DNA of 34,320 nucleotides from Prevotellaceae bacterium (GTDB lineage: Bacteria > Bacteroidota > Bacteroidia > Bacteroidales > UBA932), in the NCBI GenBank assembly GCA_031281125.1, contig JAITFU010000068.1:1-34320 (forward strand). Reading direction: 5' to 3'. Numbering within the stretch: position 1 is the stretch's first letter; each line of letters starts with the position of its first letter. Below, piece by piece: positions 28,736 through 32,642 of this stretch. A program made the translations under genes and the position numbers. The notes under the pieces were generated by a model, which ran no database searches, was not told where the DNA came from, and worked only from the letters and a program-made list of their open reading frames with translations.

Positions 28736-29773
28736 GTGTTTACCGCAATTGTTATCCTCAACTGGAATGGAAAGGCCTTTTTGGAGGCCTTTCTCTCTCC
28801 ATTGTTGGATAGTATTGCTTTGTTGGAAACGGAGGTGATCATTGCCGACAACGGCTCCACCGACGGGTCGGTTGACTTTTTAAGGGAACACTATCCGCAA
28901 CTCCGTCTGATCCTTTTTGAGCAGAACTTAGGTTATACCGGCGGGTATAACCGCGCTTTGGCGCAAATCGAAGCCAAATATTATGTTTTGCTCAATTCCG
29001 ATGTACAAGTGGATGTAAACTGGCTGCCGCCGTTACTCGCCTTTATGGAGTCCCATCCGCAGGCGGGGATTTGTATGCCCAAAATCCTTTCTCAAAGCCA
29101 ACCCGACTTTTTTGAATACGCCGGGGCGTGCGGAGGTTTTATTGACCGCTACGGCTATCCCTTTTGTCGCGGCAGGATTCTTTCCTATGTGGAGTCCGAC
29201 AACGGCCAATACAACACGCCGATGGAGATATTTTGGGCAAGCGGTGCTTGTTTATTGATTCGTGCAGCTCTTTTTCATGAGTTAGGGGGATTTGATGATC
29301 GATTTTTTGCCCACATGGAGGAGATTGACCTGTGCTGGCGAGCCAAAATCAAGGGGTTTCAGGTGTGGGTGGTTCCGCAGTCTCAGGTGTTTCATGTGGG
29401 CGGCGGTACGCTACCCAACGACTCCCCGCAAAAACTCTACCTCAATTATCGGAACAACCTTTGGATGCTCTACAAAAACCTCCCTCCCAAAAGACGTTAT
29501 CCCCTCTTGTTCCCAAGAATGTTGTTGGATGGGTTGTCGGCCTTTGTCTATCTGATTCAGGCCAAACCAAAACTGTTTGCCGCCGTAGTAAGGGCGCACC
29601 GCCATTTTTGGAAAGGACGCAAACAATTAACACCCAACACAACGGAAACAATCGACCCAAACGTCCTGACTTTTATCCGACAAACCATCTGGAACAAAAG
29701 CATCGTATGGAACTTTTTCCTGCACCGGAAAAGGCTTACCTTTGAAAAATTATCCCATATTCACCCTTTTTGA
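28736..29773 (+). CDS. Family 2 glycosyltransferase (rhamnosyltransferase-like)
   Basis: AIVILNWNGKAFLEAFL, IIADNGSTDGS, LLNSDVQVDVNWL, FWASGACLLIRAALFHELGGFDDRFFAHMEEIDLCWRAKIKGF; GTG start 5 nt after POT stop. Confidence 0.93.
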   Translation: MFTAIVILNWNGKAFLEAFLSPLLDSIALLETEVIIADNGSTDGSVDFLREHYPQLRLILFEQNLGYTGGYNRALAQIEAKYYVLLNSDVQVDVNWLPPLLAFMESHPQAGICMPKILSQSQPDFFEYAGACGGFIDRYGYPFCRGRILSYVESDNGQYNTPMEIFWASGACLLIRAALFHELGGFDDRFFAHMEEIDLCWRAKIKGFQVWVVPQSQVFHVGGGTLPNDSPQKLYLNYRNNLWMLYKNLPPKRRYPLLFPRMLLDGLSAFVYLIQAKPKLFAAVVRAHRHFWKGRKQLTPNTTETIDPNVLTFIRQTIWNKSIVWNFFLHRKRLTFEKLSHIHPF

Positions 29774-29847: not shown

Positions 29848-31311
29848 TCAAATCTCCAACCTCCCCTCTGAGGGCTCTTTGTAGGCGTTTGCTAATTTTA
29901 GATAGTTGTTGATTTTATCAAAGTCAGAACCAATGATGTGGGTTGAAAAGTGTTGGAGTTTATCCATGACACGAATAAAGGCGTCCGGCTCTTTTTGGTT
30001 GGTCAATTTTTTAAGAGATAGAAGGTAATCTTCTCTGTAAACGGTGGGTACAATAATGCGCGTTTGTCCGCTTTTAAAGAGTTCTGCGTTCCCCATCAAA
30101 CGCGATACCCTTCCGTTACCATCTGTAAAGGGGTGAACTTCAGATACCAAAAACATCATAAAGATCGCTTTTGACATGGGGTCACTCAGGGCTGCATAAT
30201 ACTTAAATCCCTGCCTTAATGTTCCTTCGACTAAGGTGTAATCGGTAAATTCCGTGTTTCCTGCTCTGTTGTTTTGGGTTTTAAAGACTCCTGCGTTCAC
30301 CTCCTCCGCCCTGCCGGCCATCATGATTACATGGCGGCGTTTTAATATTTCAATCAGATTATCTGCGGTTACAGGAGTGGTGCTCATCTCAAAGCTATTG
30401 GATACAATCTCAAATGTTCCTAAGATATCGTGAGAATCCTTTATCCTTTTGGGAAGGGCAAGGCCGGTATCGACAATCTTCTTGGCCTCTTCAACAACAA
30501 ACTCCGTACCCTCTATGTAATTAGAAAAATAGGCTTCAAAAAAGGAGAACAAGCGAAAAGAGGCCTCCGACCTGTTGTTATCCGGCCGCTCCGGAAAATA
30601 GGCGTTGCATAACTTATCATACAGAATTTCAAACAGTTCGACTCGTTTTGGGTCGTATGGCACTCCCGCGGCCCTGGCTTTGGCAGAATCAGAACTTAAT
30701 ACGTATGCGGGGCGCGTCTTTAACAAAGCCGATATTATGCCGTTTAGCTTGTCAAATTCTTGATTAAGATTTAGCTGAAAAGCAATCTCTTTTGCTTTAT
30801 CTCTGAATCTATTGATGCCTTCTTCTCCTTCTCGGATAATGATTTTTTCTAACCTCTCTTCGATAAATTCGATGGGGAAATTTTTGGATTCGCTGCCCTT
30901 CTTCCTCGAAATTTGCATATTTTCGAGCATCCACCTCCACTCTGACGAAACATGGAGTCCTCCTATGTTTATATCGGATTCCAATGGAGGTTTTCCTTCC
31001 ATTACGTTGAGTATAATTCCTTTAAAATTGGTTATTCTTTTTGAATAATGATCGGTTATAAAAAAGTGTCCCGACTCCGTTGGCCTCAATTCCAAGGCGC
31101 TCCGATGGCTGATGACCGCGTGTGGAAATCGCCATTTGAGGATGTCAAAAAAATGACGTTTAATGATATGCTCCGCACTATCCAATAAATTGGTAGTATA
31201 TATTTTAGGTGCTATTTTTTTTATTTTACCTTCCTTTTCTGCCCTACTGATTTGATTAGAGATGCTTTTATCCGAAGAGGCGAAGATGATTTCCTGTGGA
31301 ATTTTTTCCAT
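29848..31311 (-). CDS. Fic-domain protein with AbiEi-like winged-helix N-terminal region
   Basis: HPFTDGNGRVSR Fic core; FSNYIEGTEF = (S/T)xxxE(G/N) inhibitory motif; N-terminus ISNQISRAEKEGKIKKIAPKIYTT...AVISHRSALEL resembles AbiEi-type antitoxin wHTH. Confidence 0.9.
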   Translation of the reverse strand: MEKIPQEIIFASSDKSISNQISRAEKEGKIKKIAPKIYTTNLLDSAEHIIKRHFFDILKWRFPHAVISHRSALELRPTESGHFFITDHYSKRITNFKGIILNVMEGKPPLESDINIGGLHVSSEWRWMLENMQISRKKGSESKNFPIEFIEERLEKIIIREGEEGINRFRDKAKEIAFQLNLNQEFDKLNGIISALLKTRPAYVLSSDSAKARAAGVPYDPKRVELFEILYDKLCNAYFPERPDNNRSEASFRLFSFFEAYFSNYIEGTEFVVEEAKKIVDTGLALPKRIKDSHDILGTFEIVSNSFEMSTTPVTADNLIEILKRRHVIMMAGRAEEVNAGVFKTQNNRAGNTEFTDYTLVEGTLRQGFKYYAALSDPMSKAIFMMFLVSEVHPFTDGNGRVSRLMGNAELFKSGQTRIIVPTVYREDYLLSLKKLTNQKEPDAFIRVMDKLQHFSTHIIGSDFDKINNYLKLANAYKEPSEGRLEI

Positions 31312-31381
31312 GATAACGACTATTTGGGCGCAAAAATAGGAATTTTTTCCATTATAGCCCTATTTTTGTGGAATTTTTTCC
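31298..31381 (-). promoter_or_regulatory. Three-box operator-like array GGAAAAAATTCC at fic start region
   Basis: Identical 12-mers (GGAATTTTTTCC on +) at 31298-31309, 31339-31350, 31370-31381; the first covers fic codons 1-5. Confidence 0.7.
31331..31338 (-). promoter_or_regulatory. -7 element (TATTTTTG) for fic
   Basis: CAAAAATA on + strand 20 bp upstream of fic ATG, abutting operator-like box 2. Confidence 0.45.
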
Positions 31382-31382
31382 T

Positions 31383-32642
31383 TTATAACACATCCAACAC
31401 CTGCTCCAAGCGTTTCCCTCGAGATCCCTTTATCAAAATGGTGGCGCCGGTCAAAGGATGCTCCAATAGATAATTCCTCAACTTTTCGACTGTATCGAAT
31501 GTATTCCCCAACCTTGTCCCAACCAAAAACGCCTGCCCAATCACCCCATTTTTCTGTAACGACACCAATCGCTCCACCAAGATCCGATGCTCTCGCTCCG
31601 AATCGAGACCAAGCTCCAACATATCGCCAAGAATCACCACCTTATTTTCTGCTTGAAGCTGTTCAAAATTATCCAAGGCCGCCGCCATACTGGTGGGGTT
31701 AGCATTATAAGCGTCTATAATCAACGTATTTTTTCCCGTTTGTTTCCACTGAGAACGGTTATTGGAGGGTACATAACCACTAATGGCAACCGCTGCCGCC
31801 TTGTGATCCACACCAAAAACAGCCCCCACCGCCAACGCCGCCAATACGTTGTCGGCATTATAAGCGCCCACCAATTGGGTTTCGATCAACGGATATCCCG
31901 GTACAGAAATCCGCAAAAAAGGAAAAGCGGAGTCAACCGGAAGAACAGAGGCCTTTTGGTGATTTAATCCGTAGAAATGTCTCTCTTTTTGCCCTCCCCT
32001 CTCTTTGGCCATTCCACACAAAAGGGGATTGTCGGCATTTACAAAAAGCGTTTGGGCAACCTCGTAGAGGGCGCCTTTGGTTTGCATTACCCCTTCTAAA
32101 GAGCCAAATCCCTCAAGGTGCGCTTTCCCTACATTGGTAATCAAGCCGTAGTCGGGCCAGGCGATGGCCGCCAACTGGGCAATCTCTCCCGGATGGTTGG
32201 CACCCATCTCTACCACCGCCACCTCTGTGGCCGTATCCATACGCAACAGGGTCAACGGAACGCCAATATGATTGTTCAAGTTGCCCGACGTAGCGCACAC
32301 CTTATAACGAGTCGATAACACTGCAGCAATCAACTCTTTAGTCGTTGTCTTTCCATTGGTGCCGGTGAGCGCCACCACGGGAAGACCCAGCGCCTCCCTG
32401 TGCCGGCTTGCCAACTGTTGCAGCGCCTCCAACACATCGGGAACCAAAATAAACCGCTCTCCCTTTGCCACCGGCCTGTCAATCACTGCATACGCAGCGC
32501 CGGCCTCAACAGCTTTTTGTGCTTTGTCTTTGCCGTCAAAGTTGTCTCCTTTGAGGGCAAAAAAGATGTCGCCGGGTGTAACGTTTCGGCTATCGGTCGA
32601 AACAGAGAGATGCTCCAAAAAAATATTGTATAAATCTTTCAT
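31383..32642 (-). CDS. murF: UDP-N-acetylmuramoyl-tripeptide--D-alanyl-D-alanine ligase
   Basis: VALTGTNGKTTTKELIAAVL, NLNNHIGVPLTLL, EMGANHPGEIAQL, IIDAYNANPTSM. Confidence 0.97.
   Translation of the reverse strand: MKDLYNIFLEHLSVSTDSRNVTPGDIFFALKGDNFDGKDKAQKAVEAGAAYAVIDRPVAKGERFILVPDVLEALQQLASRHREALGLPVVALTGTNGKTTTKELIAAVLSTRYKVCATSGNLNNHIGVPLTLLRMDTATEVAVVEMGANHPGEIAQLAAIAWPDYGLITNVGKAHLEGFGSLEGVMQTKGALYEVAQTLFVNADNPLLCGMAKERGGQKERHFYGLNHQKASVLPVDSAFPFLRISVPGYPLIETQLVGAYNADNVLAALAVGAVFGVDHKAAAVAISGYVPSNNRSQWKQTGKNTLIIDAYNANPTSMAAALDNFEQLQAENKVVILGDMLELGLDSEREHRILVERLVSLQKNGVIGQAFLVGTRLGNTFDTVEKLRNYLLEHPLTGATILIKGSRGKRLEQVLDVL

Follow-up and report, generated by a model that had tools for sequence, protein, structure and literature searches.

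A gene of the Bacteroidota that fuses an AbiEi-like DNA-binding module to a Fic domain is typically preceded by three or more direct repeats, or boxes, which we read as the operator of that same gene, bound by the fusion protein to repress its own synthesis; judging from the sequences, we put the probability of this reading at roughly 0.86. The boxes are conserved, their spacing is fixed, they are in register with the promoter, they are linked to one protein family, and their letters co-vary with a residue of that protein. Because the spacing is fixed and the letters change with one residue of the protein's own helix, this Fic enzyme is very probably self-binding and self-repressing. An oddity of one sequence thereby becomes a regulatory module found across the phylum, with a recognition code that can be read, and regulation would be defined for a widespread, uncharacterised one-gene Fic family whose PADLOC match is that of a phage-defence candidate only (PDC-S04).

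The features concerned lie as follows in the window, by which we mean the whole 34,320-nucleotide stretch of DNA that was analysed.

29848..31311, minus strand: fusion gene of 487 aa, with an AbiEi-like DNA-binding module (residues 1-146, predicted), a helical linker and a Fic domain
30109..30135, minus strand: Fic active-site motif HPFTDGNGR, codons 393-401, intact
30508..30525, minus strand: class II Fic inhibitory motif SNYIEG, codons 263-268, fitting (S/T)xxxE(G/N)
31024..31068, minus strand: beta-hairpin, codons 82-96, whose tip (88-91) shows a weaker, suggestive co-variation with box positions 8 and 12
31234..31269, minus strand: predicted recognition helix, codons 15-26, in which Lys15 co-varies with box positions 20-21 (ATTCC versus ATTTG)
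31296..31319, minus strand: downstream box (box 1), 24-mer TCGTTATCATGGAAAAAATTCCAC; the ATGG inside it holds the fic start codon
31331..31338, minus strand: putative Bacteroidota-type -7 promoter element TATTTTTG (TAnnTTTG), abutted by the middle box
31337..31360, minus strand: middle box, GGGCTATAATGGAAAAAATTCCTA, in the promoter spacer immediately 5' of the -7 element
31368..31391, minus strand: upstream box, GTGTTATAAAGGAAAAAATTCCAC, which runs across the murF stop codon

An earlier sequence-only reading of the window had described three identical same-strand 12-mers, and exact matching reproduces their positions: GGAAAAAATTCC occurs on the minus strand at 31298-31309, 31339-31350 and 31370-31381, in steps of 41 and 31 bp. 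The relations to neighbouring features that it reported also hold, as the start ATG lies inside 31298-31309, TATTTTTG at minus 31338..31331 adjoins the middle box, and the upstream box starts 2 bp past the murF stop (31383-31385), its extended form TTATAAAGG running into the final murF codons. Under a mononucleotide model, GGAAAAAATTCC is expected 0.36 times per 2.19 Mb genome and the chance of two more same-strand copies within 100 bp is ~1e-10; the triple array is not a product of chance. The assembly (2.19 Mb, 200 contigs) holds 4 copies, the three described here and one within a 638-aa open frame on another contig. Of the further sites that a genome scan had been proposed to look for, that single coding-frame copy is what was found in exact form, and a 19-letter degenerate box showed no enrichment genome-wide (31 sites, compared with 37 for a reversed control pattern). 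The array is therefore local and dedicated, with no regulon motif; we rejected a regulon on the grounds that degenerate boxes are unenriched and that extra exact sites in relatives occur singly. A one-mismatch site at 29709 was likewise set aside as a further box, being inside a glycosyltransferase reading frame and at about chance expectation. The middle box is also flanked by an inverted repeat, CAAAAATAGG...CCTATTTTTG (31331-31368), that includes the -7 element.

Homologues were collected from the host's family, order and class and from 85,462 species genomes, and their loci lie in Bacteroidales, Flavobacteriales, Cytophagales and Saprospirales, with many Bacteroidales MAGs among the nearest named relatives. 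Conservation beside homologues had been named as a check on the array, and it is borne out: after removal of near-identical proteins, at least three same-strand boxes precede the same AbiEi-like/Fic fusion gene at 87 of 94 distinct homologues. The other seven have no clear triple, and some of those upstream regions end at a contig edge. With no spacing assumed, direct repeats of at least 13/16 identity were counted upstream of the gene in 107 loci: 76 loci have them 31 bp apart, 51 have them 41 bp apart and 45 have them 72 bp apart, with minor companion spacings of 32, 42 and 73 bp, and shuffled DNA gives ~0.3 loci per spacing. Among the 87 loci, the triples are spaced 31/41 (48 loci), 31/31 (14), 31/32 (7), 31/42 (7) and 32/42 (3); with values such as 41 and 31, the second spacing therefore shifts by a whole helical turn. 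When spacing is left free, the best-triple mismatch score has a median of 14 before this gene; the median is 26.5 at the starts of 156 other genes from these loci and 26 in shuffled DNA. Four to six boxes are present in 30 of the 87 loci, often as a second 31/41 triplet upstream. At L012, L061, L112, L127, L128, L138 and L173 this second triplet is complete (31/41 or 31/40) and separated from the first by 25, 34-36 or 45-46 bp, gaps that depart by about half a helical turn from the register kept inside each triplet.

The array belongs to this fusion gene in particular. Of 15 loci around other Fic-domain matches (L020-L034), those that could be scored show no 31/41 array, and none was found at stand-alone AbiEi-type genes of the same order; we accordingly rejected the array as a general trait of either Fic or AbiEi genes. 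Nor was a conserved partner gene found, as no neighbour is common to more than 5 of the 87 loci.

The letters of the boxes vary from locus to locus: TATAATGGAAAAAATTCC here, forms ending ATTTG in close relatives, and elsewhere TTTAATCGACAAAATTTG, CTTATTCTGAAAAATTTG, TTTAATCGATGTTTTTTT and others. Agreement between boxes is 79% within a locus and 64% between loci. In 157 pairs of homologues whose proteins are 70-93% identical, identity is 82% in the boxes and 45% in the spacers. What relatives share is an asymmetric, directly repeated unit of ~17-20 bp, longer than the 12 bp originally delimited. The palindromic GGAA/TTCC arms that had been proposed did not survive comparison: GGAAAAAATTCC falls short of a perfect palindrome, and relatives (GGAAAAAATTTG and others) do not keep the arms. 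Because box letters vary between loci, we regard the palindrome as an accident of one lineage. The letters change and the strict 31/41 bp register does not, which implies a higher-order complex of defined and solvable geometry.

The sequence TAnnTTTG is the Bacteroidota -7 promoter element. In 46 of 87 loci its first base falls at middle-box offset 22 or 23; the corresponding offsets in the other boxes rarely have it. Given this register, the middle box fills the spacer 5' of the -7. Of 87 loci, 33 have their start ATG as part of the downstream-box ATGG and 22 have it directly after that box, and the window shows both the -7 and the start-codon register, with TATTTTTG at 31338-31331 and the ATG within the downstream box. 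The ATGGAAAAAATTCC common to box 1 and the middle box makes a local duplication imaginable, and the boxes might on that account be slippage products, such as a duplicated start-codon region, or an mRNA element, with no operator role. We give this almost no credence: the upstream box lies 5' of the inferred transcription start, the exact helical spacing with boxes 82% and spacers 45% identical speaks against recent duplication, and neither an RNA element nor slippage would explain why box letters co-vary with a residue of the protein.

The Fic half of that protein is readily identified, the Fic domain being the one Pfam family detected (PF02661, 41 bits). Residues 393-404, HPFTDGNGRVSR, conform to HxFx(D/E)GNGRxxR, a motif found in 105 of 107 homologues. 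The class II inhibitory motif is defined as (S/T)xxxE(G/N) (PMC3667792); SNYIEG has this form in a helix N-terminal to the Fic core, and its S263, N264, I266, E267 and G268 are invariant in 60 homologues. By their residues, the active site and the class II inhibitory motif are both intact, and across 60 homologues they vary little or not at all.

The N-terminal module matches no Pfam family, and a sequence search of the PDB returned no match for it. PADLOC gives PDC-S04 and SoFic as best matches, with a weak AbiEi match over residues 11-84 (E 1e-4). SoFic and BtFic (3eqx, 3cuc) share the Fic core with our protein, as does PDC-S04, but differ in the N-terminal domain, and we know of no operator array for any of the three. 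AlphaFold2 modelled the full protein, with 60 homologues, at pLDDT 91.5; in this model residue 15 opens a helix (15-26) that is followed by a two-stranded wing hairpin. Because Foldseek with the full model returned the Fic core only, the N-terminal module was modelled alone (pLDDT 89.7), and S. agalactiae AbiEi (6y8q) then provided the first two matches of 350,542 chains, with probabilities of 0.96-0.98 but E ~0.01 and TM <=0.39. Rv2827c appeared further down the same list, and an hhalign profile comparison with stand-alone AbiEi was marginal. Since this predicted resemblance is weak in absolute terms, we call the module AbiEi-like rather than AbiEi. Among the matches listed by the searches of order and class, the module is part of a ~500-aa Fic fusion frame with a single exception, the 58-aa open frame of L183, which spans module residues 4-54 only and is a gene remnant.

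To relate the protein to its boxes, protein columns were compared with box positions by mutual information and then by Pagel's correlated-change test, for which the tree was inferred from residues 200-484, a region that excludes the N-terminal module. Lysine at residue 15 coincides with C at box position 20: 18 loci have both, 3 have Lys without C, 1 has another residue with C and 65 have neither (Fisher 1.3e-14). Lys15 thus pairs with ATTC (ATTCC) and other residues with ATTT (ATTTG). Pagel's test gives LR 54.8 (p 3.6e-11, ~10 changes), compared with LR 18 for the runner-up residue for C20, with the reservation that the test may overstate support where changes cluster. The changes fall in at least five separated clades (L066; the L112-L145 group; L125; L149; a termite-gut group, which parsimony scores as several changes). 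The association holds with one representative per identity cluster (80%, p 6e-7; 70%, p 1e-4), and masking the tested bases leaves the box phase unchanged. Among loci added later, C occupies at least two of three boxes at both that have Lys15 (L223, L238) and at no Bacteroidota locus with another residue there. The exceptions, L014-L016, have Lys15 without C20, and their spacing is 32/42. In separate lineages, one or two bases of the operator can therefore be predicted from a single residue, and because residue 15 tracks the box letters, the fusion protein probably reads its own boxes. Residues 88-91 also co-vary with box positions 8 and 12 (LR 19-26), a signal that fails correction for ~12,000 residue-base combinations. 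Because positions 8-12 and 20-21 are about one turn apart, one protomer could plausibly grip the box at two points, which we offer as a suggestion. Mutual information alone had also linked box positions 10-12 to residues scattered over the whole protein; these links were discarded, most having disappeared under the tree-aware test.

This co-variation bears on whether a different regulator, such as a global or defence-island repressor, might bind the boxes and count this gene among its targets. A fixed spacing proves merely that something binds, and a three-box operator would suit any phased regulator. However, the boxes are absent elsewhere in the genome, flanking genes have no such array, the array travels with the gene through unrelated neighbourhoods, and the letters vary between lineages with residue 15 of the fusion protein itself, so that we consider an outside regulator very improbable.

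Autoregulation by the N-terminal winged helix-turn-helix of the Fic protein, as first proposed from the window, is thus supported by the arrays at 87 of 94 homologues, the -7 element locked to the middle box and the co-variation of residue 15, and from these we infer that the protein physically binds the boxes, cooperatively and with one protomer on each, and that it represses rather than activates. Each box of ~17-20 bp would be read by one AbiEi-like module, the recognition helix (from residue 15) touching the 3' part of the box and the second beta-hairpin (88-91) probably touching the 5' part, about one helical turn off. Three protomers, 31 and 41 bp apart, would then line up on one face of the double helix and bind cooperatively. 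Occupancy of the middle box would block the promoter spacer and the -7 element, the upstream box would cover the region upstream, and the downstream box would cover the start of transcription or translation; with all three regions occluded, we propose, the Fic enzyme represses its own synthesis.

The protein might instead bind its boxes and activate, or toggle between activation and repression according to occupancy. An upstream box ~45-60 bp 5' of the inferred start is a possible activator site, and 30 loci have four to six boxes, often with an extra 31/41 triplet upstream. On the other hand, the middle box fills the spacer 5' of the -7 and the downstream box lies over the start region in most loci, and binding over a promoter spacer or start region is normally repressive. 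The known relatives AbiEi (PMC7319586) and CccR (PMC9755527) are also repressors, and we judge activation improbable.

Autorepression would make the Fic fusion protein work like these two systems, from which it differs in construction. AbiEi, from S. agalactiae abiE and as Rv2827c in M. tuberculosis, is a proven autorepressor, a two-domain winged helix-turn-helix protein whose repeated ~20 bp sites cover its own promoter (PMC7319586). Its structure 6y8q is the top fold match of our N-terminal module, and autoregulation from repeated promoter sites would be common to both systems. Its sites, however, are closely spaced pairs of inverted repeats (23 bp repeats 3 bp apart; in Rv2827c, two pairs with 13 bp gaps; PMC7319586), whereas at least three direct repeats at 31/41 bp are found here, and it is a separate antitoxin gene beside the AbiEii nucleotidyltransferase toxin, whereas here the module is fused to Fic with no conserved partner. 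CccR of Yersinia pseudotuberculosis is a Fic-family protein and a proven autorepressor near -35/-10, a negative autoregulation that our protein would share, but it binds through its C-terminal part (201-380) at a pair of inverted 10 bp repeats separated by 26 bp (PMC9755527), in contrast to the N-terminal AbiEi-like module and same-strand boxes described here. A literature search on Fic with AbiEi, direct repeats or operators, covering papers outside subscription, returned no description of this module.

A third comparison concerns activity. According to the accessible part of its report, CbFic2 of Coxiella burnetii is, as predicted for our protein, a class II Fic enzyme with a DNA-binding domain, and DNA binding changes its AMPylation/deAMPylation activity (PMC10628234); that part describes a C-terminal helix-turn-helix and a DUF4172 N-terminus and mentions no gene-specific operator, whereas our protein has an N-terminal module and an operator array. 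Because DNA binding can alter Fic activity in CbFic2, we tentatively entertain a one-gene, self-gated system, though we think it unlikely: the triple operator would be a scaffold for three Fic protomers, binding would alter both transcription and AMP-transferase activity, and lost occupancy, for example when foreign DNA or replication shifts the operator-to-protein ratio, would free active enzyme, making toxin and DNA-tethered antitoxin one chain with a species-specific code in residue 15. The family is a naturally occurring case in which to ask whether Fic activity is gated by DNA binding.

The gene also occurs on plasmids (L215-L222) of Bacteroides, Phocaeicola, Hymenobacter and several Pseudomonadota, and from carriage in such varied hosts we conclude that it moves widely. 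No homologue was found in phage records, and one viral contig carries one (L184). In the distant plasmid-borne homologues of Pseudomonadota (33-40% identity), repeats with very different letters are visible by eye at 31-32 and 41-42 bp; Variovorax L221 has several AAAACACGACA-like boxes 5' of the Fic gene, the last over the start codon, alike in layout and unrelated in letters. At L013/L126 the homologue has a disrupted recognition-helix region and only two recognisable boxes, possibly a joint decay of helix and boxes.
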